A DNA stretch of 64,000 nt from Sipunculus nudus (lineage: Eukaryota > Annelida > Sipuncula > Golfingiida > Sipunculidae). Position 1 is the stretch's first letter, and every line of letters begins with the position of its first letter. The notes below the pieces were generated by a model. That model was not told where the DNA came from, did not search any database, and worked only from the letters and a program-made list of their open reading frames with translations. The stretch covers positions 63,144,370 through 63,208,369 of the forward strand of contig CM049307.1 of the NCBI GenBank assembly GCA_026874595.1, written 5' to 3'. Shown here piece by piece: positions 20,701-59,098 of this stretch. A program made the translations under genes and the position numbers.

Positions 20701-23700
20701 AATAGTATCTGGAAGAAACAATATGGTTTTGCTTGAGTGCTTTTCAAGTTTTAGGTTTTCTATCTAAAGATTTTTTTAATAAAGCATTGTCTCATATCAC
20801 TGGTCAGTAAAATAACCAATTTTACATCACTTACAGTTCTGGTCTGTTTCTCTAGAGCAAGCAGAACATCTATGGCCTCAGTCAACTTCCCTCCCTAAAA
20901 AAGAAACAACAACCATGAAATTATGAACAATAAACACTGGGGTACCCCAGGGATCAATCCTGGGTCCTCTATTGTACTTAATATATATGAATGACATACA
21001 TCAATGCAGCAACTATTTTAATTTCACACTATACGATGACGAAACAACATTATTTAACCCCTTGGCAAGTTACAACAAACTAAAAGACCAACACATCATC
21101 AACAAAGAATTAAATAAAGTACATAACTGGTTAAATGCTAATAAACTCTCATTAAATGTACAAAAAACAAAATTTATGATCTTTCATACTAAACATAAAA
21201 CTCTAAAAGATGGAAGCCCTGATCTCAAAATTGATAAAACACCAATAGAAAGGGTATCAGATTTCAATTTCTTGGGTATAACAACTAGAATACGGGTAGT
21301 CGACAAGCGACTACTTGTATCCGCCTAAATCAGAGTGGAACGGGTGAAGTGTTGCATATTAGCATGGATATTTTATCCCATGGCAGACAAACAGATGGGA
21401 GCTGTGCAAACATGGCTGCAGGTGGCGCCACCAGTTTTGCGTATGATAAAGAGCTATGTGAGATTTATACACATGCAAAATTTTGGCCCAATCGGTCAAA
21501 CGGTTCCCTAGATATGAGCTTGGATGTCGCAGCGTAAACTTGATTGTAGGTGGCGCCACCTGTCATAAAATCAGAAAAGCTATCCAGGATGTATAAGCAT
21601 GCCAAATTTCAGGTGAATTAGTCAAACCACTGCAGAAATATGAGTGATTTTAACCCAAGGCAGACGAACAGATGGACACTGTGCAAACATGGTTGCAGGT
21701 GGTGCCACCATTTTCGGTGTATGTTATAAAGCTCTCCAAGGGCTACATTTGTGCAAAAAAATTTTCCTGATCGGTCAACAGTTCCTGAGATATGAGCTTG
21801 GATGTCTGCAGCGTAAACGTGAATGTAGGTGGCGCCACCTGTCATAAAATCAGAAAAGCTATCCAGGATGTATACGCATGCTAAATTTCAGGTGAATTAG
21901 TCAAGTCACTGCAGAGATATGAGTGATTTTAACCCAAGGCAGACAAACAGATGGACACTGTGCAAACATGGTTGCAGGTAGCGCCACCATTTTTGGTGTA
22001 TGTTATAAAGCTCTCCAAGGGCTACATTTGTGCAAAAGAATTTTCCTGATCGGTCAAACGGTTCCTGAGATATGACTTTTGATGTCTGCAGCGTAAACGT
22101 GAATGTAGGTGGCGCCACCTGTCATAAAATCAGAAAAGCTATCCAGGATGTATACGCATGCCCAATTTCAGGTGAATTAGTCAAGTCACTGCAGAGATAT
22201 GAGTGATTTTAACCCAAGGCAGACGAACAGATGGACACTGTGCAAACATGGTTGCAGGTGGCGCCACCATTTTTGGTGTATGTAATAAAGCTCTCCGAGG
22301 GCTACATTTGTGCAAAAAAATTTTCCTGATCGGTCAAACGGTTCCCGAGATATGTGGGTTTATGTGTGGAAACAGACGCACAAACGGACGCAGAGCGCAA
22401 AGGAAAGGTCAGAGGTCAAAACAAAATCGGGGCGCAGCAGTTCACATGTGACCCGAACATAATCCCGGGTTTCGGAAAATTCCGCCCAGCGGTTACGGAG
22501 GAGTTCTCCGGACACCTACGCGGCGGCGGCGGCGGCGGCGGCGACCAGCTGAAAACATAGTATCCGCAAAACTCTGTTTTGGCGGATACAATAAATGAAC
22601 ACATGAAATGGCAGACACACACAAACAAAATTGCATCAAAAATTTCAAAATACATAGGAGTACTAAATAAATTAAAACAATACCTACCAATACACATACT
22701 TAAAACCATATATGATACACTTATTCTGTCCCAATTAAATTACGGAATCCTAATATGGGGTTCTGACACAAATAGATTAGAAAAATTACAAAAAAAAGCC
22801 TTAAGAATAATTACAAATAACAACTACAATGCACACACAGAACCAATCTTTAAATCATCAAAAACCCTAAAAATCAAGGATATTTTCAAATTAAACATAA
22901 TAAAATTTTATTATAATTATTGTCATGCAGCACTTCCAAAATTCTTCCTAACGTTTAATATATCGACAAGAAACATGACGCACAGACACAACACAAGACA
23001 CAAAGACACCCTAGCTACAAATAAAACAAGAACCAAAATAGCAGACAATAGTCTGAGGAACAAAATACCAAAAGTCATAAATGAAACTGACCATAACATT
23101 GCTGATAAAATCTACACCCACAGCCTCCAAGGATTAATTAATTACACCAAACAACATTTTATAAATACATACAAAGAAAAATGCACACAAACAAACTGCT
23201 ACATCTGTAACAAAAATTAGAATTTTTCGTTGTTTTTCCTTTCCTCCATTAACAAACAAACATATAAATACCCATTAATTCTTTCAATCTCCTTCACTAT
23301 TTTTGTAAACAATTATTATCATCTAATTGTAAATGTATCAAACATGTTCAATCATCCATATTTATATAGTTATATATACTTTCTTATACCAAATGTTTGC
23401 AGGTGGCTGTTGTGTCAGCGGAAAAAAAATCCTTACAACAGTCTCCTGACATAGTAAAAACGAAAATATAAACAATTGAATATACAATATATGGATATGT
23501 ACAATTTTATGTCGAATAAACTTCTTCTTCTTCTTCTACCTGGTAACTAAATTCTACTCTTGTTATAAATGAAGATTATGAGGCATCCATCCAATAAACT
23601 TCTATCATGTATTACACCAGAACCTGCCATGAGGGGACACCAGGATGAGCGAACACCTTCGATGTACGGACACTAAGCCAATGTCCCGACCCATTTCCCT

Positions 23701-26700
23701 TTAAAATTGACCTGTCATGAGCGGACACCTGCTAAATGCGGACAGGGACAGTCCTGTTTGGCCAAAAATCCTGTCATAAACGGACACCTGATTCCGATTT
23801 ATCAACAGCCACCAGTTACGCTGCGTGGGTGTATCCGCTGAGCAGCTCTGCCGAACGCTTCCTGCACGCTGTGAACAGCTCGTATATAGATACATTCATA
23901 GATATTATGTTAATCGCAGGAATTCCGTATCACATGACTGACTCGACCAATGAGCATCAACATTAGTTGACACAAGTCTTTTTCTGTCATATAAGCATGG
24001 CTGACGAGTGGCTTGCGCCAACAAACTTGAGGCACTATTTCAAGGTTGCAAAATAATAACGATAGCATATTTGATGATTGTAACTCTAACTGTTGCAAAA
24101 GACGTCAAAATGTTGATTAACAAGAACAATTTGGCCTGCGCAATAATCCAAATATGATTGCAGGGGCACCTGCAGGTGACAACAACCGAACGCTCCCAAA
24201 TACCCCGCCATAATGAATGTCGCCTCATTTGAGGCCCAGTCATGGCAATGTAAATCTGAGAAAATCGTAGCTGAATTTGATGCATCCAGCCATAATCTCA
24301 ATGTCAGGATAAAAGTTTCATGTTGAAAATTATTTCAATCCAAATATTGAGGTCTAAGTCGATGTATTTGAGTTGATTTCAGCGGACCAAACCACCGTAC
24401 ATAGTTCAAATTTTATTGCGAGTAGCACCGCCTGGCAACAGCTAATGAAGGCCACTGAACGCTCTTGATCAGCCCAGCATTTCTGTCATACTGAATGTCC
24501 GCCTGATGTGAAGACGAGTCACAGCAATGTTAATCTGAATAAATCATTGCTAAATTTGAGGCATCCAGTCATAATTTCAATGTTGGGATAAAATACTGAT
24601 GTGGAAAATTGATATCAATCCAATATTGAGTTCGGGGTGTCTGAATTTGAATGATTTCCAATGGACTGTACATAAAGGACATGAGATATAACTCATTTTG
24701 ACAGACATAAATGTACTCTTCAGCGCCGTGGATAGAACATTGCATAAATTTAATTGTTCATTAGAAATTGAAATTAATGCAATATCTTAATGACACCCTT
24801 ATCTTTCATTCCGAATATTCTCCTGTCATGCAAGTTTGGCTAGACCAGAGGTTTGCGGGATGACTTTTATTTATTTATTCAGAAAAACCATTTATTTATT
24901 CAGAAACAATATGTGATTAAGAAATATATAGATATATTTCATTGAATAAAAATTTGTTTTTTAAAGTTAATTTAATAAAAAGTAATTATTTCTTTAAAAT
25001 TGTACTCATGATCCACCATTATTTAATTTTGTATTAATATACCAGCTCTTGAAAGACTTTTAATTATGACATAAAAAAATCTGCTTTCCTGTGTTAGATG
25101 TCCATATAAATATTTTTCATTTTATTTTTATATATAGGTATTTGATTCTTCTGTTTTAATTTTTGAATGAATCTCCATACAGTTCTGCTGTACTCATGGA
25201 ATTTTTCACTTGTAGGCATATGCAGGAGCTGGGACAACTCAAGAGTGAGTGAAAAGTAAGGGAGAAAAATATGAAGAGAGTAGGTCCCTGTTTGTCTAGA
25301 ACACCCTACACAGTGCGGTGTCCGCCCGGCTATCCGCTTCCCAGTTATCCGCTTCCCAAATATCTGCTCACCAAATATCCGCGTGCCCAGATATCCGTGT
25401 CGGTCGAAAACGGTCGAAAATAACCCAGCACGCTTCATATATGGATAAACATGATGAAGGAAGACATCAAGGAACATTTTAATACAGGAGCTACCGGATT
25501 TTGAAGCATTTTTGACCAGATCGCGACATCGCTTTCGAGGCTGGTGTCCTGAATTGGGTCAACGGATTACCGCACGTGTGCGATCACTGAACCGCGACGC
25601 TCCAAGCGAACTTGTACGTGTGAGCCCACCCCGGCCTTAGTTAAAATTAGTGTTTTAAAATCATTGTTTTATTAAATTATTATTAATATACACGTTTTTG
25701 TGTCAGCTTTATATACATTCTTGCAGGTTTTTTATTAAGTTACCTCGAGCGATTGTTTTTGCATCATTCATGACACATATATGTTGACGGACGGACAAAA
25801 AATCTGATTTTAAATTTGTTGACATAAAGGTGATTATAGGAGATAATACATATTCCTTAACAATATTTTTTTACCTTAGAATGTTAGCTTGCATGTTTTC
25901 ATCACGTTAACCTGGGGAAACCCCGCTTCCTTGATATAATTAAGCAGATTCGTGCATTCGAAAACCGCTCCGCCGCAAAAGGGTTCTCTTTAAGTGTAAT
26001 ACAAACATTGATCATGTAACCTTGATTTAATCATTTAGGCAATCACACACGTAATTATATAAACAAACATTATAACATCTGCATTCTCTCTCTCTCTCTC
26101 TCGTCAAATATATATAATCGGACATAAAGTTATTAAATGAGACAAGTCCGGGGTCCATTATAATTAACTTAACTCTCTTTCCGTCTCTTTCATTCTATTT
26201 CTCATTCTCTCTCCTTCTCTGTTTCATTTATCCATTCATTCATTCATTCATTCTTTCTTTCTCGCTAAATATATCGTTATCATACAAAATAAAGTTATTA
26301 AATGAGACAAGTCTGTGAATCATGTAAATTAAATTATCCCCCCCCCTCTCTCTCTCTCTCCCTCTCATTCTTTCTATTATTCTTTCTTTCTATCTCTCTC
26401 ATTAATTCATTCATTAATTCATTCTTCCAATCTTTCTTTCTGTCATTCATGCTTAATATATCGTTATCATAAAAAATAATGTTATTAAATGAGACAAGTC
26501 TGTGAATCATGTAAATTAAATTATCCCCCCCCCCCTCTCTCTCATTCTTTCTATTATTCTTTCTTTCTCTCTCTCATTAATTCATTCATTTAATTATTCT
26601 TCCAAACTTTCTTTCTGTCTTTCTCGCTAAATACATCGTTATCATACAAAATAAAGTTATTATATGAGACAAGTCTGTGAATCATGAAAATTAAATTATT

Positions 26701-29700
26701 CCCTCTCTCTCTCTCATTCTTTCTATTATTCTTTCTTTCTATCTCTCTCATTAATTCATTCTTCCAATCTTTCTTTCTGTCTTTCTCGCTAAATATATTG
26801 TTATCATAAAAAATAGTTATTTAATGACATTAAATTATCCCCCCCCCTCTCTCTCTCTCTCTCTCATTCTTTTTCCATTATTCTTTCTTTCTCTCTCTCA
26901 TTAATTCATTCATTAATTCACTCCTCCAATCTTTCTTACTGTCTTTCTCGCTAAATACATCGTTATCATACAAAATAAAGTTATTATATGAGACAAGTCT
27001 GTGAATCATGAAAATTAAATTATTCCCTCTCTCTCTCTCATTCTTTCTATTATTCTTTTTTTCTATCTCTCTCATTAATTCATTCTTCCAATCTTTCTTT
27101 CTGTCTTTCTCGCTAAATATATTGTTATCATAAAAAATAAAGTTATTTAATGACATTAAATTATCCCCCCCCCCTCTCTCTCTCTCATTCTTTTTCCATT
27201 ATTCTTTCTTTCTCTCTCTCATTAATTCATTCATTAATTCACTCCTCCAATCTTTCTTACTGTCTTTCTCGCTAAATACATCGTTATCATACAAAATAAA
27301 GTTATTATATGAGACAAGTCTGTGAATCATGAAAATTAAATTATTCCCTCTCTCTCTCTCATTCTTTCTATTATTCTTTCTTTCTATCTCTCTCATTAAT
27401 TCATTCTTCCAATCTTTCTTTCTGTCTTTCTCGCTAAATATATTGTTATCATAAAAAATAAAGTTATTTAATGACATTAAATTATCCCCCCCCCCTCTCT
27501 CTCTCTCTCTCTCATTCTTTTTCCATTATTCTTTCTTTCTCTCTCTCATTAATTCATTCATTAATTCACTCCTCCAATCTTTCTTACTGTCTTTCTCGCT
27601 AAATATATCGTTATCATGCAAAATAAAGTTATTTAATGAGACAAATCTGTTACGTGTTTTATCTCTTTGATATATTTTGATGATCAACCCGTTACTGTAG
27701 CAAAAGGTAACTTTCTGATGATGTTCTTTGATCTGCTAAACAAACTTGCTTTGAACAGGAGAATGGCCCAGGTGTCACTTGGTAAAATCAAAACAAGGAA
27801 ACAAATTAACTTGAACATGAGTACTAATTAACCACCCGAATTATGTATATATAAAGTACTCTCCTGTGATTGTTACCATAATACTATCAGTACTCTGCAT
27901 GCACGAACGTCTTTTTGTCAACTTGACTGGTGGCAGCTTGAGTTTCTTCATCGAGTGACTTTTGTTTAAAACTAAACAACACAGTCGGGAAAGTAAAAGT
28001 AAACAGCTTCCTTCGGGGAATACATGATGGATCAAGACAACATGGATCCGTCCGTCAACATGTGTCATGAATGATGCAAAAACAATCGCTCGAGGTAACT
28101 TAATAAAAAACCTGCAAGAATGTATATAAAGCTGACACAAAAACGTGTTAATTAATAATAATTTAATAAAACAATGATTTTAAAACACTAATATTAACTA
28201 AGGCCGGATGGGCTCACACGTACAAGTTCGCTTGGAGCGTCGCGGTTCAGTGATCGCACTCGTGCGGTAATCCGTTGACCCAATTCAGGACACCAGCCTC
28301 GAAAGTGATGTCGCGATCTGGTCAAAAATGCTTCAAAAACCGGTAGCTCCTGTATTAAAATGTTCCTTAATGTCTTCCTTCATCATCTTTATCCAAGATC
28401 GTTGCATATATTAAGCGTGCAGGTACATTTTCGACCGTTTTCGACCGACACGGATATCTGGGCACGCGGATATTTGGTGAGCAGATATTTGGGAAGCGGA
28501 TAACTGGGAAGCGGATAGCCGGGCCTGAACCCACAGTGCATGAGTGTAAGCGATTCTACAGCAGCTCCCAATTATTATATATTGTGTTGTCATTATGATC
28601 CGTGTAGTATTACTAAAATAGAAACTCTTCTTCTATTATCTATCTGTCTATCTTCTATCTGTATTTGGACAGATCTGTCCAATGATCCATATGGTTAACT
28701 CCTAACACTGTACTGTACTGCTTACTGCTTGATAACCATGTCAACCATGGCCATTGGATACATACTGTAGCAAGATATAAGTAACCATATATTCTGTTTT
28801 TTAATACTACCCCAGGTGTCTCACCTTTTTGGCGCAATTACAGAATCTGGTCTACATATCAATCTGGCCAGGATGGGTCTAAACTGGCTGAAACCGTCTA
28901 ACAAAGGTACATAAGCCATGACGGCTATTCAAGAACTAAAACTGATGTATATTCACCCCTTGTCCTTAATGGACTGTATATACTTGCTGCTTGTTGTTTT
29001 CTCAACCTTAAGCAATATCCAATATATCCGTCCATCACTGTAAATGTCTCGCTGTGTTGTGTCCCCTATAGCACTAACTATGCTTACGTAAGACACAAGA
29101 ATTCAACAGGGATGGAATTGGCCGGGATGTGGGAGCTGTAGATCCAGTTGTGGCTCTGTTTAAAAAAACAGAGCCACAGGTCCCTGCCTTAATTTATCTA
29201 GTGGACAGTAGCGCATGCAGGTGACAAGGCTGTACCCACTTGGGTACATTCAGCCTGTGGTTAAGCTGGGGGTGATTGGCTGGTTATTGTTTCAGGCTAG
29301 CCCCTGTGCATTGCATGTGTTATAATCATCACTTCCAAGGTACTGGCCTATTGGGCTGTGTTACATCATCACTTCCAAGGTACTGGCCTATTGGGCTGCG
29401 CCCAGCTGAAATGTGATACATGGGCCTGGCCAGCAGAAACAGTCCAGTGTGTTACCTTGGTAACAACACTGACTGTAGGCAGTGGTCTGTGTATGGTGTG
29501 TGTGCCCTGGTCCTTACAGGACACTCACACCATGCACAAGTGATGATGTAACACATGCATATACTGCTTGATACAATCACACAGGGGCACTGGGATAGGC
29601 ACCCAACATCAGGTGTAACCATACTCACTGTGCTCTAGATAAATGAAGGCAGGGACCTGTGGCTCTGTGTTTACAACAGAGCTACAACTGGGTGGGAGCA

Positions 29701-32060: not shown

Positions 32061-32098
<38 letters not shown>

Positions 32099-32317
32099 TA
32101 CATTTCATTTTCTGTATGACACATATCAAATATATATCAATTAAATATAAGGATTAAAAAAATAAGGTATATGTTAATTCTGATTAAATCATTTAGATAT
32201 AAATATTTTATAGTAAACTCATAAATGGAACCACAGTCTATAATTCTATTTATTTATATATTTCATTTGAAATATATAAATATTATCCTCTGAATAGTGG
32301 GGGGGGGGGGGGGGATT

Positions 32318-32852: not shown

Positions 32853-32856
<4 letters not shown>

Positions 32857-33690: not shown

Positions 33691-33691
33691 A

Positions 33692-34228: not shown

Positions 34229-35094
34229 TTGAGGCCAAATAAATTGGGCTATCATAAGCTTAGCAGAACTAAGTATCATAAGCTTAGCAGAACTAAGTCC
34301 CTGTTTAAAAGAAGTGCTGGCATAACTCAGTACATAGTGGTCATATAATGGAGGCTCCTATTGTGTTTTAAACCCTTACAATTCCTGAAAAAAAGATACC
34401 AATATTATGATGCTTAAAATGTATATATGCTAATAGGACAAAAAAAAGAGACCTGTAAGATATGGTCATTATTCCTGGGGTGGTTTGCCAGACCAGCATG
34501 GTCATTAGTTGGGCTTTACTGAAGATTATGCATAAAATTTACAAGTTTACAATAACAAAATAAGGTGAACAAGCTGATGCAAGAGTCAAAGTTAAACTAT
34601 TCCAGACAATACATTTTATCATGAGAAATTATAAGTGCATTCATATCAGAAGAATTCATGTCTAAAGTTGGAAGAAACGCAACTGCATGTATATATGTGG
34701 TGTAGCTATCCAGGATCCTGGTATGTAAAAATCAGAGTAAACACTAGAACTTAAAATCCTTGGGGGAAAAAGAAAGCACATCAAATTAAAATTAAATTTT
34801 GTGTTTATGGGGAAACTTATGTAATCTAAAACAGAAATATTTGAATGACCAAGAAATTTAGCCAAATAAAACAATTTTAACCAACTTTTAAAACTCACTT
34901 TAACTGCAACCCCATTATTTGAAACTGTCTCTGAATCAGAGACAGTGAACTGCATGGCCTTTGCTCAGAGAGCCACATGGTTGGCAGTTGATACATCATA
35001 ACAAGATGTTAAGCTAGTGTGTGCTTGCCCGAAGTGGTTTGGAAAACCCAGAGCAGACTTTTTTTGCTGCTTATCACTGCTTGTGTATAAATAA
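34229..35094. other. PITPNC1 intron sequence with a perfect short palindrome
   Basis: A 17-bp unit (TCATAAGCTTAGCAGAACTAAG) is duplicated near 34253-34297. A perfect 11-bp inverted repeat ACTGTCTCTGA-A-TCAGAGACAGT lies at 34924-34946. Nothing coding. Confidence 0.5.
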
Positions 35095-36451
35095 GAACTC
35101 CGCTGTAACCACTGGGCAGAACTTTACAAAACCCGGGATTATGTTTGGGTCACGTGAACTGCTGCGCCCTGATTTTGTTTTGACCTCTGACCTTTCCTCT
35201 CTGCCCAGCGTCCATTTGTGTGTCTGTTTCCATACATAAACCCACATATCTCGGGAACCGTTAGACCGATTTTGTACAAATGTAGCTCTTGGAAGTTGGA
35301 TAGCTTTATAACCTACACAAAAAATGGTGGCGCCACCTGCAGCCATGTTTGCACAGTGTCCATCTGTTCATCTGCCTTGGGTTAAAATCACTCATATCTC
35401 TGCAGTGGTTTCACTAATTCACCTGAAATTCGGCATGCATATACATCCTGGATAGCTTTCTTGATTTTATGACAGGTGGCGCCACTTACATTCACATTCA
35501 CGCTGCAGACATCCAAGCTTATATCTCAGGAACCGTTTGACCGATTGGGCCTAATTTATGCATGTGTGTAGATCACACATAGCTCTTTATCATACGCAAA
35601 ACTGGTGGTGCCACCTGCAACCATTTTTGCACAGCGTCCTTCAGTTTGTCTGCCATGGGATAATATCACTCATATGTCGGCAGTGGTTTGACATATCTGC
35701 CTAAAATTTTGCAGTTTTAATACATCCTGGACAGCTTTCTTGATTTTATGACAGGTGGCGCCACCTACATTCTAGTTTATGCTGCAGACATCCAAGCTCA
35801 TATCTCAAGAACCTTTTGACCGATTGGGCCAAAATTTTGCATGTGTATAGATCTCACATAGCTCTTTATTATACACAAAACTGGAGGGACCACCTGCAAC
35901 CATTTTTGCACAGTGTCCATCTGTTTGTCTGCCAAGGGCTAAAATCACTCATATACATGTAGTGGTTTGACTTATCTGCCTTAAATTTTGCATATGTAAA
36001 CAACTTTGACAGCTTTCTGGATTTTGTGGTAGGTGGCGCCACCTACATTTATGTTAACGCTGCAGACATTCAGGCTTATATCTCAGGACTGGTTGGACAT
36101 ATCCCCCTGAAATTTTGCATGTGTATAGATCTCACATAACTCGTAATCATACACAAAATTGGTGGCGCCACCTGCCACCATTTTTGCACAAGTCCGTTTG
36201 TTTTTCTGCTATGGGATAAAATCACTCATATACATGTAGTGGTTTGACTTTTCTGCCTAAAATTTTGCATATGTATACAACTTGGACAGCTTTCTGGATT
36301 TGTGGTACACATTTAGGCTGCAGACAGCCATGCTAATATGCAACACACCTCACTCTTTTTCCCCTTGCCACTCAATCCATGCCTCACTTCACCCGTTCCA
36401 CTCTGATTTAGGCGGATACACGTAGTCGCTTGTCGACTACCCATATTCTAG
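35095..36451 (+). mobile_element. CTAG-1 element copy B, 5'-truncated
   Basis: Begins inside the element at GAACTCCGCTGTAACC, lacking the GTATCCGCC start and the GCC-rich part. It carries the tandem core with GGTGGCGCCACC-type palindromes at about 35328, 35475, 35605, 35755, 36031 and 36163. The 3' end is complete: CACTCTGATTTAGGCGGATAC, perfect hairpin GTAGTCG-CTTGT-CGACTAC at 36422-36440, then CTAG (36448-36451) and TT. Confidence 0.85.
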
Positions 36452-38395: not shown

Positions 38396-38589
38396 TGATT
38401 TTCTTGCTTCTTGGAGTAATTGTATCCCTAGACAAAGTCAGGGGGATACTATGTTTTTATGCCGGTCCCCCCTGCCGCCGCCGCATATAAATCTTGTTGG
38501 CGCGATAACTCAAAAAAATATTTCACAGATTTTTACCAAACTTGGTATATGTATAGATATTGGTGAGAGGACGACGCCTATTTAAAATG

Positions 38590-38628
38590 AGGTCATGACC
38601 TCAACCAGGAGAGTGACCTTGACCTTGA
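38590..38628. promoter_or_regulatory. Nuclear-receptor-like half sites inside CTAG-2
   Basis: A perfect AGGTCATGACCT palindrome at 38590-38601 (the form of the palindromic thyroid/retinoid element) is followed at 38614-38628 by TGACCTTGACCTTGA, two AGGTCA-type half sites on the minus strand, each with the TCAAGG extension preferred by monomeric receptors such as ERR. The same pair recurs at 38911-38948, 45943-45980 and, decayed, near 46269-46300. Binding is not shown. Confidence 0.35.
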
Positions 38629-39042
38629 ATAGGTACAGTTTTGGGGAAAATCACACAAATTCTTAAATATCTCAAGAAATCTTGCATGGATTGATCCCAA
38701 AATTAAGTTGATAGAAGATCATGGATGGGGTTGTCATGTTCCAGAAACTGGTGCTGTGACCTATTATTCATTACTTGTTTTCATGCTTTTTGATACCCCC
38801 AAAATTGCCACTTGACAGTACTGTGAGCATTATAAGTCAAAAACTAATAAACAGATTTCTTTAATATTGTGCATATACATGGGTTATGGGATGACGTATA
38901 TATAAATTGGGGTCATGACCTTTCCTATTAGAGTGACCTTGACCTTGAATATTGCCATATATGACGAAAATTATACAAAATCATTAATATCTCAATAAGG
39001 GATGCATGGATTGGTCCAAAAATCAACTTGATCGAAGATGGG

Positions 39043-41012: not shown

Positions 41013-41077
41013 AATTTGGCACAATATCTACGGTTAATGTCAATAACGTAGATTCTGCCAGTTGCACTTCTCATTAT

Positions 41078-42100: not shown

Positions 42101-42317
42101 CTTCCTTGATAACTTAAATAGAATAAAACATTTACTCATCCGCATCATACTCACTGCATCTGATGAAAATGATGCATGGATTCTCTGGAAAGAAGCCTTT
42201 CTCTACATTTGTTATAAGCATGCACCAATCAGACAAGTTAGAGTAAAATCTCAAAAACCTTGTTTTATTGACAACAAAACTCGAGAAATTATGAGGCTAT
42301 GTGACTTCATGCATAAA

Positions 42318-45022
42318 CAAGGGACCCATGGGTCACGGCGCTCAGCTGTATATATGATAAAAAATATGATTTGGGAAAGAGGCACATACTTGTTTTGTGT
42401 GGTAATAAATATAAGCTTTATTATGAGTTGTTGGTGTTTAGCTTATGTATGATTTTGATAGTATCTTTGGAGACAGGGAAGAGGATTGATTTCATTTATT
42501 TTATTAACAAATGGAGCGCTATTGTCACACAGATATTTACTTGGCCATATAACTTATAAGCAACACATATAATAAAAGAGTTTAACTATTTATTAAAATT
42601 TAATAACAAATATTGTGCCAATATAATTTTTATTTAAAAAAATAATAAGAAAATCATATGATTTTTTAAAATAAAATATAACTAAAATGAATATTGAAAT
42701 ATTATTATAGAATATATTCATGGATGCGTTTATGAATACATTTTGAAAGTATCTGCACTGGTATTCAAATACTCTCATTTTTACCAGAAATCCTATTCTT
42801 ATGCAAAAAAATTTTTTAATGCAGTACATATTCATATTCGTATTCAAATACATTTGCAAAGCATTTGCACCATGTCTAGTATTTATTCAGTTTTAGCCAA
42901 ACAATGATGTTGAGAATCCAGAATATACAAAATTCACAAATTTTAATAATGATCATAAGTACCTGGTTTTATGGCTTTTATTTATATTATAAAAAATAAA
43001 TGTAATATATTCACTTTGGACTACTTTCACATCAATCTACACACTAGACACAGTAGGAATCTAGATTAATATTATCAACTGCATCTTTGTCTATCATTAA
43101 TTTCCTTCATATGATCCCTAATGATTAGTAATGAATAATATGATTGATTTTTTTATCATTAAAATTTCACTGAAAAATACCATAGGTGACTGCATGGTGT
43201 TATTTGGAATAACATTAACATTGACATTCTATCCATCCATACAAGATTATTATATCATCAGTAACTGCAAGTTAAGTTTCTGTTACTCATCAACTAACAA
43301 ATTCCTTTTCTATTAATTTTTCTTTAATTTGTTATAAAGAAAAAAACAATACAAAATTATTAATTTATTGTTTATTGTTATGTTGTTTTTCAAAACAACT
43401 ACTAGATGAGTTGGGTTGGGCATCTGGATCAACTGTGGCTGGGCATTAGCTGCCTGGCTGCCCCAGTGTATGCTTAGCTCAAGCATGCATAATCTGATGA
43501 AAGGTCAACAAGGTCAACATACAGGTGACTGAAGAGGGGCTGGATTAAGCCTGGGTCTGACATGGTCTCATAAAAACATTAATAAAAGCTACAATATTTG
43601 GCCAATTTCTTTTAGCTTTCTAAACTACAAAGATGAAATCCTTATGTGTGCATGATATGAAAATTATATCAACAGTGCTCTCAGGAAGCAAACATGCCAT
43701 GGTCAAAATTTGGCAAAATTTAAGGTACTAATTTTATATTTATACCAATAACTTTAAAATAAAAATAAAATTTGAATAATTCAGAACTAATTTTTGGTAT
43801 TCAATTGAATCTTGATTAAATAATGTTACATGCCTGACAAAAAAATCTCTAGCTTCAGCAATCCTCTTGTTAAGGGAGTAAATATATTTCTTGATTTTTT
43901 AAAAAGTGCATTATGTTTGGGCCCGTAACTTAAAACAATTACGCAATACTGACATCATTTCTGGCATGTGCATAGCAAATGTATAGAAAAATATGTATAT
44001 TATATATGATCAAAGTCAGATCAGTGGTTTTGATAAAAGGTAGTCTTACAGTGTAACAATGGGTTTTTAATGGAAAAATGAAGTTTTTCATTAATATTTC
44101 GAAGGAATTAAGTCCTAGTGATCAAATTCTTGGCATGGTAGGGGATTTTGGAGACATCTAACTGTATGCTAAATTTAAGGAACTTAGAGCTGAATCTAGG
44201 GAGCTGAGCTCTAGCAAACTGCATTATAACACTAGCTTGATGTAAACTTGATGTGACATGGTGCTTGAAAACTTGAATGAAATCTACAGTTTTTGATCAA
44301 CTGGTTTCAAATTTTTTATGTTAACAGACAAAATGCTAACAAAAACATGCTGTGAAAATTAAATCCACAGTACTGACAGGAAAAAAACGTGCCATGGTCA
44401 AACTTGGGCAAAATAAGTTATATGGCCAAGTCAAAATCTGTGTGACAATAGTACTCCATTTGTTAATAAAATAAATGAAATCAATCCTCTTCCCTGTCTC
44501 CAAAGGTACTATCAAAATCATACATAAGCTAAACAACAACAACTCATAATACAGCTTATACTTATTACCACACAAAACCAGCATGTGCCTCATTTCTAAA
44601 TAATATTTTTTTATCATATATAACAGCTGAGCGTCGTGACCCATAGGTCCCTAGTTTAAATTAAATAATACTGACTTAATTTCTGGCTTGTACATAGGAA
44701 CTATATAGAGGAATATTTATGGTAAATATGAAGAAAACCAGATGAGTGGTTTTGATATTAGGCAGTCCTGAAGTGTGAAAATAGATTTCTAATAAAAAAT
44801 TGAGGTTTTTCCTTAATATCTGGAAGGGACAAAGTCCTATTGACCCAATTTTCGGCATGGTAGGAGATTTTGGGGACATCTAACTGTATGGCGAATTTCA
44901 GATTCGTATGTCCAATGGTGTCAAAATGTGCCAGTCTTACAGACGGATGGACAGACAGACGGACGGACGACGGACAATGGACCACGACTATAGCTCAGAT
45001 GACTTATAGTCAGCTGAGCTAA
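42318..45022 (-). mobile_element. F-family element copy 3, nested in the LINE linker, with an internal inverted segment
   Basis: Minus-strand 5' end TTTAGCTCAGCTGACTATAA at about 45022; the 3' end (rc of CAAGGGACCCATGGGTCACG) is at 42318. Removing the sequence between CAT and TGG rejoins the LINE frame as ...RLCDFMH-WLKNNIGTDLVI... . Within it, 44401-44660 is an inverted copy of 42318-42559, and a second partial 5' region occurs at about 43650-44200. It is therefore a composite or multi-insertion structure. No intact ORF. Confidence 0.7.
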
Positions 45023-45816
45023 AAATGGCTCAAAAACAACATTGGGACGGACTTAGTTATTTATAAACAACTTCAAAATTTAGCTAACATTAAAATCAAA
45101 CAACATAAACGTAGATTTTATATGACTAAGATAGGCCAAGCTGGTATGAACCAGAAAAAGATATAGAACGTTGTAAACAGCATCTTAAAGAAAGCTCAGA
45201 ATAGCAATGATCTCCAGCACATTAATATTGAAGAAGCGGCCAAACACTTTGCTGATGTCCGCCTTCTACTGTCTGACAAATTTCTTTCATCATGCACGCA
45301 AAGCTTTCACATCCAAACATCATCCAGTAACTTTGAATTTAGTCTCATAACCTCCTCTCTAGTACAGCAGTTTCTAACAAGCCTATCTTTCGAGAGTAAA
45401 ATCAATCTCAAAGAAACTGCTCCTCCTTACAGGTCTTTAAAAAGAATATCATGTAATAAACCTCTGTGCTTTATATGTCATATACTGCATGCTATTTCAA
45501 ATCCTGTTATATTCCATATTTATGTCACACTCATGATTGCCTTGTATATAACGTTGCATGTCAGAGTTTTATATTCATGTTTAATATCACATCTTGCTGT
45601 ATATTATGTTAAATGTCATAGTTATATTTTTCATGTTAAAAATCCCATCTTGCTGCATAATTTTATCTTTTAGTCACTTTAATTAATTCTGATTGCATTT
45701 TACATGTTTTATACATTGAATAAACTGTATATCCAAACAGGGCCCTGTGGCTGATCAGACAATCTCGTCTGAACGGGCTACCCTGTATAAATATGTTTTA
45801 ATAAATAAATAAATAA
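45023..45816 (+). pseudogene. LINE remnant: endonuclease-RT linker, RT deleted, C-terminus and tail
   Basis: Reads WLKNNIGTDLVIYKQLQNLA, KIKQHKRRFYMTKIGQAG, then DLQHINIEEAAKHFADVRLL and FSLITSSLVQQFL. This is the stretch that normally leads into the polymerase. It passes directly to a short Cys-containing C-terminus (TAPPYRSLKRISCNKPLCFI) and the AAAT tail. The palm motifs are absent, so the RT domain has been deleted. Confidence 0.65.
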
Positions 45817-46729
45817 TCTTGGGTAGTATTGTCATGTTCCAGAAACTGGTAGTGCCACCTATTATTGTATCCCCAGACGGGATCTTTACCAAACTTGGTA
45901 TATTTATAGATATGGGTGAGAGGACGACGCTCATTTAAAATGAGGTCATGACCTTGACTAGGAGAGTGTCCTTGACCTTGAATAGGTCCAATTTTGGGGA
46001 AAATCACACAAAATCTTAAATATCTCAAGAAATCTTGCATGGATTGATCCCAAAATCAAGTTGACGGAAGATCATGGGTAGGGTTGTCATGTTCCAGAAA
46101 CTGGTGGCACCACCTATTATTCTTTATTTGTTTTCATGCCTTTTAATACCCCCAAAATTGCTACTTGACAGTACTGTGAGCATTTTAAGTCAAAGACTAA
46201 TGGACAGATTTCTTTGATATTATGCATAAACATAGGCATGGGTTATGGGATGATGTTTATTTAAATTGGGGTCATGACCTTTCCTATGAGAGTGGCCTTA
46301 ACCTTGAATATTGCCATATATGGTGAAAATCACACAAAATCATTAATTTCTCAATAAGGGATGCATGGATTGGTCCAAAAATCAACTTGACCGAAAATCT
46401 TGGATAGTGTTGTTGTCATGTACCAGAAACTGTTAGCGCCACCTGTTATTCTTTACTTGTTTTCATGTTGTTTAATACCCCATCATTGCCACTTAACAGT
46501 ACTGTGAGAATTATAAGTCAAAAACTAATGGACAGATTTCTTTCATATTATGCATATACATAGACATGGGTTAGGGGATGATGTATATTGAAATTGGGGT
46601 CATGACTTTTTCTATGAGAGTGGTCTGATATTAATTGTTGCTGATGATGAGGGGCCTATTCTTAAAGGGGGGGGGGGGGATTAATTGTCTGGGGATACTA
46701 TGGCACTGCAGGTGCCAAGAAATATCTAG

Positions 46730-47518
46730 TTTTTACACTGAATGCATCAATTTGCATGGGTATAGAATGTTTCAGTACTAATACTATTAGGCCTTTGAAT
46801 TGTGAGGAACCTTAAAATGGATCCAATAATTGATTTTTATACCTTCAATTCAATTCTCGATTAAATTATTTCCTTTGTAGTAAATGTAAATTTCCTTTTA
46901 ATTAAAAGCAAACATTTTACACCATGGACGTTAGCTAATTTTAGCAAGTGAAGGGATAATGTAGTCCTCCATTGGTTTATCACCATTTTTTTTCTGTGCG
47001 AGTTGGAAGATCTAAAGATTAGTGTTAAAACTAGATCTAGGTCACAAACACGATAAATAGCCCCAACGATGGCCTGCTCTGTCAAATTTGACAGATCATA
47101 GATGCCTTTGGGGTGGTATATGCAAAAAAGAAATGACAGAACAAATCAATTTGGAGGTTAATATTTGAATACAATTAAAACCCGTAATTACTATAATACT
47201 TTCTGAGAGAATCAGTGTGGAGCTGAGAGTGTTCACTTTCTTTGGTTTGGTGAGGGATGGTCAGAGGAATGATTAATTACTCTCATGTAAATGGTATCCC
47301 ATGTGTTCATTCATGTGCTGAGTCATGTGTTAAGGCATGTGTTGACCCATGTGGGTATATATGTGTGGGTTCCCATTAAAGAGACAAGTATTAAATCTGG
47401 GATTCTATTTAGTGAATATACATTTCAAGAGTGTTGTTATTAAGACTGGTTTATAAGACTGAATCTTAAGTTTAGGCTGGTTTTAGTTTCTAAGATAGTC
47501 TTGAGAATGGTCTTGATA
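46730..47518. other. PITPNC1 intron sequence, nothing recognised
   Basis: AT-rich; a run of ATGTG(T) units near 47290-47365. No coding or mobile features identified. Confidence 0.4.
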
Positions 47519-47523
47519 AAACA

Positions 47524-47945
47524 AGTCTTCTGTGGCTCAGGGGTAGAGTGCAGGACTCAAAGTCAGGAGATCGTGGGTTCGAATCTCAGCCAAGGCAGTG
47601 ATGTTTTTCACAGTCGGGCCCCCACTCAGGGTCATCGCTCTGCAGGCTTAATGGGAAGGCTGTGTCCCACAGCCGTGTATCACTCTCATACGAGTGCGTC
47701 TTTGGGGGGTTCCTCAGTGTTATGACCCAGCAGTGGGGATAATTATACACCCAGGACCTGCAGGTGCAGTAGACACCTGGCCTAGGTGACACCAGGATAC
47801 AAAATAAAAATAATAGGAAGCGCGTGCTACCGCCCTGTCAGGTAGTCCCAAACCGAAATGGAAACCCTGCAGATGTACATGCATACTTAGGTTAAGAATT
47901 AGATAAGTAAGCATTGAAAAATGGAGGCGGTAACCTCCCCCCAAA
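47524..47945 (+). mobile_element. tRNA-derived SINE, copy 1
   Basis: The head has a Pol III A box (TGTGGCTCAGGGGTAGAG) and B box (GTGGGTTCGAATCTC) about 35 bp apart, as in a tRNA. The body contains CAGGCTTAATGGGAAGGCTG, TGTATCACTC and TTTGGGGGGTTCCTCAGTG, and the end is GGCGGTAACCTCC then A-rich. Shared with 61856-62116. Confidence 0.8.
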
Positions 47946-49265
47946 AAATTAAAGAAAAAATTGGTCTTGAAAAACATTTGATTGCTATGGTCACTTTAGA
48001 CAAGTCCCACCTGATGGAGACCGGGGAGAGTAGGATCAGTATATTCAAGTTACATTTTTACAGGTGGATATTAAGGGTTTGCAGGCAAAATAAACCCATG
48101 CAGTACCCATAGAGAGCACACAACATATTATAACATCTCACCTAAATTCAAATCCAAACAAAATTATGCATATTTAATAAGGTCACCAGACCTTGGTGGC
48201 ATCGTGATTACTTGCCAAAAATGTGATGGATTTTCATGAAACTCATTACAAATGTTAACCAATACAGTTTCTCACCTCATTTAAACTTGTGACAAAATGT
48301 ATGCATATTTAATGAGGTCAGAGGTCACAAGACCTACAACAGGCATCTTTGTGGGATACATGTAGAAATTTTTTATCTTTACTATGATAGAAACCTGATA
48401 CACAGGCAGTATAAGAAAGGGATCCTGAATCATAATAAAAAAGATAAAATGGCATCACTTTTTTACCCACTAATGGATGTAAATTAGACGAATGTGGTTA
48501 TGAATAATTCAAGTGTTGAGACTAGAATTGTTTATGTAAAGGTTAACACCTCAAGTGTAACCACCAAGGAAACCACCATTGTTGATTTATACTCTATATT
48601 ATAGGTCATGCTTGGTCGGGATTCCTAATAATACATAATATTCTTAATGACTATGTTATCTTATGATGACTAATGCTAAATCATGTTGCCACATCTGGGT
48701 GCATATAGAGGACAAGTTGCAGTATTAAATCAGTTGTAAGGTGACACAAATGTGCTACCCGCCTAGTGTATGTCAAATAGAATTTCATAAAATAATGAAA
48801 TAAGTTAGGGGAAACATATTTTATGCGGTGCATTAACAGGTCAGTTTATATTATATTGTAATATCAGGTCATAAAGTGTAGTTGGAGAGACGGAGTATTA
48901 TTAGGTAAAGTTGTCAGCTGTTGTTGTTATCCTGTTTGTTTACATCTGTGCCGATGACACTGGTGGATTATTCAATAGTATTTTGTTTATTATGTAGGTA
49001 AATGGACTTACTGTACCATGATTTATTATATTAGAAGACAGAAGGTTCTAGAGAATTCAGGTAATGTGTAATTTCCAATAGGTAAATTAAACTTTATCAA
49101 TAAACAGATTGTTACTTGGATATTTCATAAAGCCTTACAGTGTCTACATAAAGTGTATTTACATTGTTAATAAGTCAAGAAAGAACACCCATGCCAGTAT
49201 TGCTTTTGTGTTACATATATGGAGCATATCCACCATGTTTATAATTATCTCATCAGTATACTCTG
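47946..49265. other. PITPNC1 intron sequence with a fragment of the G-family repeat
   Basis: 48170-48375 resembles 56690-56880 (TATTTAATGAGGTCAGAGGTCAC, ATGAAACTCATTA, CTTGGTGGC). The rest is unremarkable AT-rich DNA. Confidence 0.45.
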
Positions 49266-49266
49266 C

Positions 49267-49268
49267 CA

Positions 49269-49335
<67 letters not shown>
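49267..49335. repeat. (TA)n microsatellite, ~70 bp
   Basis: Uninterrupted TA repeat that runs directly into the element at 49336. Confidence 0.95.
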
Positions 49336-49339
<4 letters not shown>

Positions 49340-50040
49340 GAGGCCCAGATTAGAATCTGGCCCAATTTAAAACTGGTCTGGCCCAGATCAAAATTTTGAT
49401 TTGGACCGGCCCAGATCAAAATTCTAATCTGGGCCAGACCAGTTTTAAACTGGGCCAGCCCAGATTAAAATTTTGATCTGGGCCGGTCCAGATTACAATC
49501 CTGTGGTCAAGACTTCAGGATTCAAATCCAGTCTGGACTGATTTTAAACTGGGCTGGCCCAGATTAGAATTTTGAGCTGGGCTGGTTAAGTTTACAATCC
49601 TGTGGTGGACTGATTTTAAACTGGTCTGGCCCAGATCAGATTCCTAATCTGCTCCTAGGCTGGCTTCAATTACACTATGTTTACCTAGCTGCCCTTTAAT
49701 CAATTCAAGGAGTTTGTAAAACTTTGTAAGTCAACAATAATAAATTTTTTACGAATTTATTATAAATGTATTTATTATGGGGATATGGTACCATGTGATA
49801 CCAAATAAGTTGGTAAAACATCCAATGTTTCACTCCTGTGATAGTAAAAGCACGGATCGCAATATGGGCTGGTCAAGTTTAGGATTGTAATCTAGGCTGG
49901 ACAGATCTAAGATCTGTCCAGCCAAGATTACGATCCTGAAGCAAGAAAGACAGGATCACAATCTGGCCAGACTAAACTGTGATCGCAATCTTGGCTGGAC
50001 AGATCTAAGATCCATCCGAATCAGGATCTGGGCCTTGACA
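49336..50040. mobile_element. 705-bp MITE-like element made of GGCCCAGAT palindromic modules
   Basis: The ends are inverted: TGTCGAGGCCCAGAT (49336) and ATCTGGGCCTTGACA (ending 50040), each flanked by TATA. The interior is a mosaic of direct and inverted modules such as GGCCCAGATCAAAATTTTGA, TCTGGGCCAGACCAG, GACTGATTTTAAACTGG and GGCTGGACAGATCTAAGATC. It could fold into several long hairpins. No ORF. Superfamily not determined. Confidence 0.75.
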
Positions 50041-50307
50041 TATACATTGATCTGCTGGTTGCTTAATGTGTTGTTAATTTTTATGGTGAACTACTGTTGA
50101 TATTGTATTTCTTATCTAATTTCAAGAATTATGTCCCATTTAAAGGTACATAAATATTTGCAATAGTATGTGTATTATCTCACACATTTTGGCTGAATAT
50201 AAAAATACCCCAGAAAAATCATTTTGGCAAACAGACGTCCTATCTCAAATACACCTGTTTTATATTATATTGTTACGGTGTAGTGTGTGAGTTTAAAACA
50301 CAGTCTG

Positions 50308-50389
50308 GAGATAGGGGACTATTCTTAAAGGGGGGGGGGATTAATTGTCTGGGGATACTATGGCACCTGCGGTGCCAAGAAATGTCTAG
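50308..50389 (+). mobile_element. CTAG-2 solo 3' end
   Basis: Matches the last ~80 bp of the 46.7-kb copy: poly-G, ATTGTCTGGGGATAC, hairpin GGCACC-TGC-GGTGCC (50362-50376), AAGAAATGTCTAG, then TT. The upstream part of the element is absent. Confidence 0.8.
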
Positions 50390-52374: not shown

Positions 52375-52377
52375 AAC

Positions 52378-54285
52378 ATTTTTTTAGCTCAGCTGACTAT
52401 AAGTCATCTGAGCTATAGTCGTGGTCCATTGTCCGTCGTCCGTCCGTCTGTCCGTCCGTCCGTAGATGTGGCACGTTTTAAAACCGTAAGACCTAGGAAT
52501 CCAAAATTCAGCATAATGTTAGATGTCCCCAAGATCTCCTACCAAGCCGAAAACTGGGTCTTTGCAACTTCGTTCCTTTGAGAAATTAAGGAAAAACCTC
52601 AATTTTTTATTAAAATCCTTTTTTCACACTTCAGGACTGCCTAATATCAAAACCACTCATCTGTTTTTCCTCATATTTACCATAAATATTCTTCTATATA
52701 GTTCCTTTGTACATGCCAGAAATTAAGTCTGTTAAGTATAAATTCTTTAAGTTATGGGCCCAAACATAATGGACTTTGTAAAAAATCAGGAAAAATATTT
52801 ACTCACTTAACATGAAAAATTTTGAAACTAGAGTCTGTTTTCCCAAGTATATAACTATGTTTAATTAAGATTCAATTGTTTACCCAAAATTAGATCTGAA
52901 TTTTGTAAATTTTGTAAGTAATTAGCATAAAATAAAATCAGTACCTTAAATTTTGCCCAACTTTGACCATGGCACGTATTTTTCCTGTAAGTACCATTGA
53001 TTTAATTTTCACAGCATGTAAACATAAATATTTAATTTGTTTAAATCTGAAATTTGGAAGTAAAAGCTTGAAAATTAAGCTAGTTATTGATTTTTTTCTT
53101 GAGGCTCTATTGTAGTTATTTGCTTTGTTTACAGATTACAGATGCAGGGTCCCACTCCAGGTCACTGGAAGTCAGCTATGCCAGGGTTTCTGTTACAGTC
53201 ACTGGGGGAGATCCCCTGCTGTGACAGGTGTACAGTTGCTCTCATATCACCACCCCAATAACCTCCCCCCCCCCCCCCCCCCCCCCCCCCGCAAACCCAA
53301 CCCACCAAGTGTTATGCAGTATTGTTATTGTTTTCACTGTATCTCCTTAATTGTAATGCTGTTTCCACTCTGATATGCAAAAAATTTCCTTGAAAAGTAA
53401 TTCAAGGTGTAATCCAGAAGATGCAATGTTGTGTAATGTAGCATTTTTAAAGAAATCATTTTTCTTTTAAATGATTTTACCAATCATAATGGAACCCATC
53501 AGTATGCTTAAATTATGATAAAATATGAAGCACATTATGGATAAATAAGAACACAATTAAAAATTGTGAAATCTTAATCAAGTATTTTTTTTAGATATTT
53601 ATTGTTTTGCAGATTTAAAAGATATATTTTTGTGGTAAAAAATAAATAAACATTTGTATGCATGATGTGGTGTTATCTGACAAGATTGAGATTTATGATG
53701 ATGCAATTGAGAATTATGAATAAACTTTTATATTCAGATATATATGTTATATTGAAAATGTATAGAAATATAAACTTAAATTAAAAAAAAATTGATGTGA
53801 TAAAAAAATGAGGATTTATTACAAACATTTGTTCATTATTTTCCTGCATCAGCAGAATTTGAGATCAGGCTTTGTTTGCCATGTTTTATGTTGTTAATTA
53901 GTTATATTTCAACTGTATACATTTCATAAAAAAAAAACATATTTAATAATATATATTATACAAAAAAAAGATTCGATTGAACAAATGTGTAAACTACTGA
54001 AATGTCAACAGTTAATCGAAAAGCCAACTAATGATCATGGTAATTGTACAGATCATTTGTTCACAAACTGCTCACATGCTTCAGTTTCAACATTAGGAAA
54101 CACATGGTCAGGTCACAAAATATTATTTGCAACAATATTTTGCTCATCAATACAAACTAATCATATAAACCAACCATGGCCTTTATTACCTCTTCTTCTT
54201 ACACTTTATCTCCATTAGATATTATATTAGATTTTTACCTTCAAGGTTAACGTCAGCTGAGCACAGTGACCCATAGGTCCCTTGT
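52378..54285 (+). mobile_element. F-family element copy 4, most complete forward copy
   Basis: Starts TTTTAGCTCAGCTGACTATA with a (GTCC)n-rich block (CCGTCGTCCGTCCGTCTG), then the shared body (AAAACTGGGTC, ATCAAAACCACTCATCTG, TTTTGCCCAACTTTGACCAT). It ends CAGCTGAGCACAGTGACCCA and TAGGTCCCTTGTTT at 54285. The two ends share an inverted GCTCAGCTG. A ~30-bp poly-C lies at 53265-53290. The 3' part contains a LINE endonuclease remnant (53985-54218). Confidence 0.7.
53985..54218 (+). pseudogene. LINE endonuclease C-terminal remnant inside F copy 4
   Basis: Reads CQQLIEKPTNDHGNCTDHLF then TNCSHASVS and NTWSGHKILFATIF. This matches the end of APE endonucleases (xLIxxPTR...DHxFTN...SDHxxI). Gly replaces the Asp of the catalytic SDH. 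Distinct from the endonuclease at 41 kb. Confidence 0.6.
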
Positions 54286-54287
54286 TT

Positions 54288-56187: not shown

Positions 56188-56366
56188 GTGGAATCTGTCT
56201 TGAAGACCACCTGTCTAATAAGACCACCTGTCTATCAAGACCATCGTTGAGTGAACCAGAAGCATTCATATTGGTTAAACCTGACCTGTCTTATAAGACC
56301 ACCTGTGAATTAAGACCACTTTTGGCAAGTCCCACCAGTGGTCTTGTTTCACAGGTGTCACTGTAT
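56188..56366. repeat. H-family MITE-like element, short copy
   Basis: Ends ACAGTGGAATCTGTCTTGAA and (inverted) CACAGGTGTCACTGTA. The interior is made of AAGACCACCTGTCT units in both orientations. About 180 bp, no ORF. Related ends occur at 57493 and 61290-61313. Confidence 0.65.
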
Positions 56367-56504
56367 TTGAACATGCTTTGATTAATAGATTGTTGATGGT
56401 ATTGTAACTGGAAAAAATACTTATATACCTCAATCTGCATTTTTTATGCCAACTAAACACAGCTTATTCTGGTAAGAAATAACAGTGGTACTTTTAAAAG
56501 CTTT

Positions 56505-57548: not shown

Positions 57549-59098
57549 GTATCCGCCAAAAAAGAGTTTTGCGGATACTATGTTTTCAGCCCACCGCCGC
57601 CGCCACCACCGCCGCTGCGTAGGTGTCAGGAGAACTCCTCTGTAACCGCAGGGCGGAATTTTACAAAGCCCGGGATTATGTTTGGATCACGTGTACTGCT
57701 GTGCCCCGATTTTGTTTTGACAAAATTTTTGTGCGTCTGTTTTGACACATCAACCCACATATCTCGGGAACCGTTTGACCGATCTGGAAAAAAAAAATTG
57801 ACAAATGTAGCCCTTGGATAGTTTTATAACATACATAAAAAATGGTGGCACCACCTGCAACCATTTTTGCACAGCGTCCCTCTGTTTGTCTGCCGTGGGA
57901 TAAAATCACTCATATCTCTGCACTGGTTTGACTTATCTGTCTATAATTTTGCTGGTTTATACATCTTGGATAGCTTTCTGGATTTTGTGGCAGGTGGCGC
58001 CACCTACATTCATGTTTATGCTGCAGACATCCAAGCTCATATCTCGGGAACAGTTTGACCCATTGAGCCAAAATGTTGCATGTGTATAGATCTCACATAG
58101 CTCTTTATCAAACCCAAAACTGGTGGCGCCACCTGCAACCATTTTTGCACAGCGCCCATCTGTATGTCTGCCGTGGGATAAAATCAGTCATATCTCTGCA
58201 CTGGTTTGACTTATCTGCCTAAAATGTTGCTGGTTTATACATCTTGGATAGCTTTCTGGATTTTGTGGCAGTTGGCGCCACCTACATTTATGTTTACGTT
58301 GCAGACATCCAGGCTTATATCTTCGAAACTGTTTGACCAATTGGGCCAAAATTTTGCATGTGTATAGATTTCACATAGCTCTTTATCATATGCAAAACTG
58401 GTGGCACCACCTGCAACCATTTTTGCACAGTGTCCATCTGTTTGTCTGCCATGGGATAAAATCACTCATATCAAGGCAGTGGTTTGACTTTTTGCATTTG
58501 TATACAACTTTGATAGCTTTCTGGATTTTGTGGTAGGTGGCACAACCTACATACACATTTCAGCTGCAGACATCCATGCTAATATGCAACACACCTCACT
58601 CTCTTTCCCCTTGTTAAGCTGTTTTTCCATGTATCCGCAAAAAACGTATCTGCAAATGACGTACGTACGTTCCATAGTGCGCTGTCCACAAAAACTGTTT
58701 CCATAAGTACGTACGTTTTTCTAGCGGATACCCTTTTGCGTGCCTCTTTTGAAACTTTAAGGACGACAGGCAGGTAGAAAGTCATAATGTCTCATCACAC
58801 CTGGCGCCGGGGCACTGTTGGGAAATGTAGGCATTTCTGCCATCCGCAAAACGGATGAATCGCTCACCGATCCGTTTTGATGCTGTCCGTTTTTGCGGAT
58901 ACACATGCGGAGCATGTTTAAACCTACACATGGAAACAGTACATCTTAAAAAGCGGGATCCGATTTTTTTGCGTACGAGACGTACGACATTTACGGATGA
59001 ATGGAAACACAGCTTTACTCAAGCCATGCCTCACTTCACCAGTCCCACTCTGATTTTGGCGGATACACATAGTCGCTTGTCTACTACCCGTATTCTAG
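57549..59098 (+). mobile_element. CTAG-1 element copy C, full length, with a nested MITE
   Basis: TT|GTATCCGCCAAAAAAGAG start, hairpin partner TTTTGCGGATAC, GCC-rich patch 57594-57617. The tandem core has GGTGGCGCCACC-type palindromes at about 57844, 57993, 58121, 58270 and 58400. The 3' end is CACTCTGATTTTGGCGGATA, a decayed hairpin (59070-59088), CTAG at 59095-59098 and TT. Without the 398-bp MITE it is about 1.15 kb. No ORF. Confidence 0.85.
58617..59014 (-). mobile_element. 398-bp PIF/Harbinger-type MITE, copy 2, flanked by TTA, nested in CTAG-1 copy C
   Basis: Inverted relative to the copy at 40287. TTA at 58614-58616 and 59015-59017. The unoccupied site is visible in CTAG-1 copy B (CCCCTTGCCACTCAATCCAT at about 36361-36380), against CCCCTTG-TTA-[MITE]-TTA-CTCAAGCCAT here. 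Confidence 0.9.

Follow-up and report, generated by a model that had tools for sequence, protein, structure and literature searches.

CTAG-1, a high-copy non-coding element of Sipunculus nudus that very probably belongs to the Helitron2/Helentron branch

Three CTAG-1 copies and other repeats in the window

A stretch of 64,000 nucleotides of Sipunculus nudus (GCA_026874595.1, CM049307.1:63,144,370-63,208,369), referred to as the window, was analysed, and all coordinates are positions within it. The window contains three copies, A, B and C, of a repeat family termed CTAG-1 (Table 1), as proposed in an initial annotation. A search with the right end GTAGTCGCTTGTCGACTACCCGTATTCTAGTT, which includes CTAGTT, detected three matches with up to three mismatches (0 in A, 1 in B and 2 in C), and the left module TTGTATCCGCCAAAANNNNGTTTTGCGGATAC was matched exactly in A and C only; the chance expectation was 0 in each case. 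All three right ends have GGCGGATAC, the hairpin and CTAG in common, followed by TT. The limits proposed for A and C were correct, with TT preceding both 5′ ends, and the hairpin of C, described as decayed, was found to carry two changes. No element end was present at position 35095, previously given as the start of B; this copy lacks the left module and begins inside the element. A, B and C are genuine copies of a short, gene-less mobile element carrying a block of tandem repeats.

Table 1. Positions of CTAG-1 and CTAG-2 features in the window
Feature	Position	Strand	Description
CTAG-1 copy A	21285..22589	-	complete; exact left and right modules
A, left module	22560..22589	-	5′ subTIR GTATCCGCCAAAA and local inverted arm GTTTTGCGGATAC (5′ hairpin)
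A, tandem core	21370..22354	-	3.5 units of 280 bp
A, right module	21285..21325	-	3′ subTIR GGCGGATAC (21317-21325), hairpin (21296-21314), CTAG end
CTAG-1 copy B	35093..36451	+	5′-truncated, start approximate; core 35300-36301
B, right module	36411..36451	+	hairpin 36422-36440
CTAG-1 copy C	57549..59098	+	complete, split by a MITE; core 57838-58585
C, left module	57549..57578	+	
C, right module	59058..59098	+	hairpin decayed
CTAG-2 left part	38422..39039	+	left module (one subTIR change), GC-rich microsatellite, start of core
CTAG-2 copy	45867..46729	+	lacks local arm of left module; left GTATCCCCAGAC; right GTCTGGGGATAC, hairpin and CTAG; flanks TTATT and TT
CTAG-2 right end	50347..50389	+	

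The order of parts in CTAG-1 is 5′ subTIR, local inverted copy, microsatellite, tandem core, 3′ subTIR and palindrome. The local inverted copy beside the 5′ subTIR is present in A and C, and a GCC microsatellite lies inward of the left module in copy A. The right inverted repeat is subterminal with the hairpin located 3′ of it, the inverted repeats thus not being both terminal; in A, GGCGGATAC begins 41 bases from the 3′ end and the hairpin stops 11 bases from this end. The 5′ hairpin folds far below the level of shuffled sequences (z of −5.8 in A and −5.1 in C), while folding of the 3′ end was mildly better than shuffled in A (z of −1.9) and B (z of −1.5) and no better in C. The asymmetric terminal inverted repeats and hairpins at both ends that typify Helitron2 are, hence, present, with decay of the 3′ hairpin in C. 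CTAG-1 is non-coding, the longest ATG frames being 75, 84 and 81 amino acids in A, B and C, respectively, and its open frames falling below the 95% level of shuffles.

The core consists of a 278- to 280-bp tandem repeat. Each unit is a dimer of an ∼149-bp half and an ∼129-bp half, both beginning at the palindrome GGTGGCGCCACC. Identity was 77 to 96% among first-type halves (n = 8) and 65 to 92% among second-type halves (n = 7, A3 being the lowest) but only 50 to 65% between the two types, indicating that the dimeric unit is old. An array at 37600-38330 has units 60 to 80% like the CTAG-1 core without CTAG-1 ends, and may represent a separate family whose core is related.

Other repeats were also observed. 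The MITE nested in copy C (398 bp, 58617-59014) has inverted ends of the AGCTGTTTTTCCAT type and TTA on both sides, and a related copy near 40.3 kb (40331-40687, minus strand) is flanked by TAA; the TWA duplication of these two elements is reminiscent of PIF/Harbinger. Frames with a weak match to a PHD finger and with matches to a zinc knuckle and an endonuclease-reverse transcriptase are located at 38965-42099 and look like a decayed LINE. At 25324-28524, long inverted arms (pieces 94 to 97% complementary) flank a tandem array of 321 bp; this arrangement resembles a DNA transposon that carries tandem repeats internally.

Abundance, recent movement and target site of CTAG-1

The initial annotation had suggested a genome-wide search with the 3′ end. 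Exact-match scanning of the assembly containing the window (1.43 Gb, 153 contigs), with reversed sequences as controls, detected 5,313 copies of the 19-bp hairpin (2,687 + 2,626) and 5,627 of the left module (2,826 + 2,801), with 0 for each control. Neither a search of viral_contigs for the 19-bp hairpin nor one of genome_contigs for the 30-bp right end gave an exact match. Pairing was analysed for 100 listed left ends and 97 of 100 listed right ends, the remaining three lying beyond the reach of the left list. A left end on the same strand and within 20 kb upstream was present for 55 of the 97 right ends, as compared to 13 for a wrong-side control and 6 for an opposite-strand control; the other 42 had no left end among the exact left ends considered. 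Grouped by eye, the listed left-right distances cluster at ∼908, 1172, 1462, 1735 and 2025 bp, in steps of one core unit (∼280 bp), and the tandem core varies in unit number among copies. The longest distances (∼15 kb and ∼3.7 kb) were considered as candidate long elements, and each was found to consist of a complete HINE plus an extra right end.

Three copies (L003, L004 and L007) were 98.9 to 99.5% identical with differing flanks, and copy A was 99.2% identical to another copy, L006, over 1,072 bases; 

Target sites were examined for the left ends of A, C and 20 further loci (22 in all), of which 7 share flanks in 3 groups, giving 18 distinct groups. As flanks are common to some copies, counts refer to copies rather than to independent insertions. 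All 18 distinct left ends had T at −5 and A or T at −3 (A in 16); 16 had TN(A/T)TT and 14 had TNATT, as compared to a window background in which TNA precedes 10.3% of TT dinucleotides. The 100 listed left ends, obtained with a pattern that excludes C at −6 and including 18 with a single hexamer, ATTTTT, known from repeated flanks, had T at −5 in 98, A or T at −3 in 72 and 28, respectively, T at −2 in 95 and T at −1 in 99. For the 100 listed right ends, whose pattern excludes G at +6, T was present at +1 in 99, +2 in 98 and +3 in 50. Most listed ends have TT on both sides; in one paired copy the left flank is TT but the right flank is TC.

Empty sites were sought within the retrieved loci and the window for nine elements whose two ends both lie in this DNA, and a junction-spanning homologue was available for five. 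Exactly TT was gained in three of these: L005/L054 compared with L046 and L050; L061 compared with a neighbouring, 98%-identical repeat unit (units with 91 to 94% identity give two or three bases); and copy C compared with window positions 56230-56377 (75% identity). The gain was ATT for L044 compared with window positions 53232-53400 (80% identity) and was unreadable for L052, which lies inside a T run. A long target duplication, previously named as evidence against this type of element, was not seen in any of the five comparisons. Insertion at TT, as originally proposed, is in agreement with the TT at most ends and with three of five comparisons, but the target is narrower than TT. It is TN(A/T)TT, close to that of FoHeli1/2, which are described to insert after TNAT and before T or A (PMC5148889). 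The gained TT could be either element bases or a 2-base duplication. Departures from T in the listed copies (5/100 at −2, 1/100 at −1, 1/100 at +1 and 2/100 at +2) only mildly favour an element 5′-T GTATCC...CTAG T-3′ inserted in TN(A/T)T^T.

A sister family, the 5′ hairpin and Rep-encoding elements

A second family, CTAG-2, has TTGTATCC, CTAGTT and TNATT in common with CTAG-1 but differs in the subTIRs, hairpin and core. Exact CTAG-2 right ends numbered 2,893 in the genome (1,472 + 1,421), and there were 1,088 + 1,139 left-module rows, in which palindromic places are counted twice. Pairing was assessed with 89 of 100 listed right ends (11 being beyond the reach of the left list) and 96 of 100 left rows (four rows, from two palindromic places, being dropped): 41 of the 89 had a same-strand left end within 5 kb upstream, as compared to 3 for the wrong-side and 1 for the opposite-strand arrangement. 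Two CTAG-2 right ends are located 97 bp apart on one strand (G000:C1 13197954 and 13198051). The 12-kb span between CTAG-2 features at 38422-50389 was considered as an autonomous element and rejected; LINE-like frames are present inside, and no Rep domain was detected in the 6 frames tested of 24 listed.

Within each family, the 5′ and 3′ subTIRs match each other. CTAG-2 is a sister family of CTAG-1, its subTIRs differing from those of CTAG-1 but altered jointly at both ends, and this joint change allows the role proposed for subTIR pairing to be tested. Each of the two families has thousands of exact ends, and with their young members and empty sites that can be read they form a large natural data set that bears on target choice and end recognition by elements of the Helitron2/Helentron type.

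The local arm of CTAG-1 is one base shorter than the 3′ subTIR, resulting in a bulged C, and the commonest form of CTAG-2 has one mismatch in the local arm. In both families this defect lies directly after an 8-bp stem, and the match between the 5′ and 3′ subTIRs is free of it. CTAG-1 arms without the defect were present at 7 genome places (12 rows) versus 5,627 with it. Using DNA parameters at 25°C and treating subTIR/arm pairs as two strands, pairing of the 5′ subTIR with its own local arm was −13.2 kcal/mol for CTAG-1 and −13.4 kcal/mol for CTAG-2, while pairing of the 5′ with the 3′ subTIR was −18.8 kcal/mol for C-type right ends (13 pairs), −14.5 kcal/mol for A-type right ends (9 pairs) and −17.0 kcal/mol for CTAG-2 (12 pairs). 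The gain is small for the A-type, where the perfect match extends for only 9 bases versus 13 in the C-type. Intramolecular 5′ hairpins had values of −12.4 (CTAG-1) and −10.8 (CTAG-2) kcal/mol. A tentative and rather doubtful interpretation is that the 5′ hairpin acts as a built-in switch, which an arriving 3′ end could displace, marking the stop of rolling-circle copying. Bao and Jurka proposed that, when replication ends, the 5′ hairpin is disrupted by the two ATIRs pairing with each other (PMC3627910), and the defect would fit this proposal. Inheritance of the defect from one founder, with no need for a function, could produce an identical pattern.

The Rep domain PF14214 had at least 143 matches in the genome (150 of 195 candidates scored). 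One group of these genes, group (i), encodes OTU, Rep, a PIF1 helicase and, at the C terminus, an endonuclease-like domain, indicating that Helentron-type genes are present in this genome. One copy pair of group (i) shared 99.3% identity along 6.8 kb that begin close to the gene end, with the likeness stopping at a long hairpin, ...GAAATCGAAGATTTCCGGCAAGCA, without CTAG; in a second group, (ii), one pair of independent sites ends near GACCCATGGGTCCCT. Five loci (L015, L039, L062, L073 and L074) contain autonomous Helentron-type elements with open frames of >2,200 amino acids, followed 3′ of the gene by several kilobases of tandem repeats and then a terminal long hairpin. Within the 191.6 kb of 44 loci that surround Rep matches (L073 and L074 not among them), module matches above the shuffled level were restricted to L070 and L071 and were due to HINE-like copies upstream of the Rep genes. 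The copy in L071 is an insertion, as homology between two Rep loci resumes directly past it. The right module without the usual preceding HINE bases was present at 6 genome places and the left module without the usual following bases at 18, and none of these was within 20 kb of the listed Rep matches when the coordinate lists were read by eye; each pattern would miss ∼44% of arbitrary partners at equal base frequencies. No autonomous partner with CTAG-1 ends was found among the ends of the two Rep groups, the atypical-end patterns and the 44 Rep loci. The anticipated Rep/helicase partner sharing both ends was, therefore, not recovered, groups (i) and (ii), which have resolved 3′ ends, lacking those of CTAG-1.

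Classification and comparison with known systems

It is very probable that CTAG-1 is a high-copy, non-coding element of the rolling-circle type and of the Helitron2/Helentron branch (HINE), with a Rep-helicase putatively acting in trans. Anatomy, core, target and non-coding nature agree with the descriptions of HINE and Helitron2 consulted, and CTAG-2 adds support by having equal constant ends and target with jointly changed subTIRs, as does the presence of Helentron-type genes in this genome. Counted against this reading are the partner not being found, the weak 3′ fold, the three-base and unreadable empty sites and the common flanks. The initial proposal of a HINE-like, rolling-circle family was upheld in its anatomy, exact ends, tandem core and T-T insertion, but mobilisation by Helentrons was not supported by the two Rep groups with resolved 3′ ends, which end otherwise. 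It is well grounded that CTAG-1 is a new family of the type described in oysters and flies, and this exact family may be in Repbase already. A Rep-helicase supplied in trans would nick near the 5′ T ahead of GTATCC and unwind one strand, with the 3′ subTIR and 3′ hairpin signalling a stop near CTAG(T), and this unwound strand would be joined into TN(A/T)T^T with no long target duplication. Core unit number would shift via slippage or unequal exchange.

Assignment to the canonical Helitron1 branch, or to an intermediate proto-Helentron type with 5′-TT...CTAG-3′ inserted between A and T, is unlikely. The terminal CTAG is compatible with a CTRR end, the A that 16 of the 18 distinct left ends have at −3 and the net gain of two T would be accommodated, and proto-Helentron-Pi, as described, has 5′TT and 3′CTAG and inserts between A and T (PMC4067079). 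The 5′ hairpin and paired subTIRs are, however, described as Helitron2 features that Helitron1 lacks (PMC3627910), and 28 of the 100 listed left ends have T rather than A at −3, the one hexamer from repeated flanks accounting for 18 of them. Canonical Helitron1 elements have 5′-TC, CTRR and no 5′ hairpin, while CTAG-1 starts with T(T)GTATCC and has a 5′ hairpin, only CTAG fitting.

Two further explanations are both very improbable. A MITE that moves by cut-and-paste, has unequal inverted ends and duplicates a 2-bp TT target would account for the TT flanking most copies on both sides and for the gain of two T but not for a 3′ inverted repeat that begins 41 bases from the end and is followed by a hairpin, the paired copy with TT and TC flanks or the strong TN(A/T) preference ahead of TT; relative to DDE-type MITEs, the right repeat is subterminal and at most two T are repeated in clear cases. 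Non-mobile tandem satellite DNA spread by recombination could explain the large tandem core and the location of some copies, such as L047 and L048, in locally repeated blocks with equal flanks. Sharp, constant ends in differing flanks, the existence of empty sites and modules in one orientation argue against a satellite origin.

The HINE assignment of CTAG-1 was compared with published descriptions. Cg_HINE of the oyster Crassostrea gigas resembles CTAG-1 in that its left flank has a subTIR, the inverted copy of it and a microsatellite, its centre has tandem repeats and its right flank has a subTIR and palindrome (PMC7492417). The Cg_HINE microsatellites mostly have 4-base units versus GCC in CTAG-1, the likeness being judged from descriptions, and its target is T-rich, with TT suggested and no target duplication, as compared to TN(A/T)TT (PMC7492417). 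No autonomous partner was identified for Cg_HINE either, so that the missing partner of CTAG-1 is a question also left by the oyster study (PMC7492417). HINE and DINE-1 elements similarly have subTIRs, a 3′ palindrome, a TT preference, no coding capacity and, in some copies, tandem repeats, but these are tied to Helentrons with equal ends while no such tie was found for CTAG-1 (PMC4067079). Helitron2 shares with CTAG-1 a 5′-ATIR near the 5′ end as a 5′ hairpin, a 3′-ATIR upstream of a 3′ hairpin and T as the first base (PMC3627910). Its 3′-ATIR lies 20 to 30 bp from the 3′ end, whereas that of CTAG-1 starts 41 bases from the end with ∼32 after it, and in Chlamydomonas it inserts between TTTT and T/C rather than at TN(A/T)TT (PMC3627910). 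Paired ATIRs and hairpins at both ends, as in CTAG-1, are also present in FoHeli1/2 of Fusarium oxysporum (PMC5148889).
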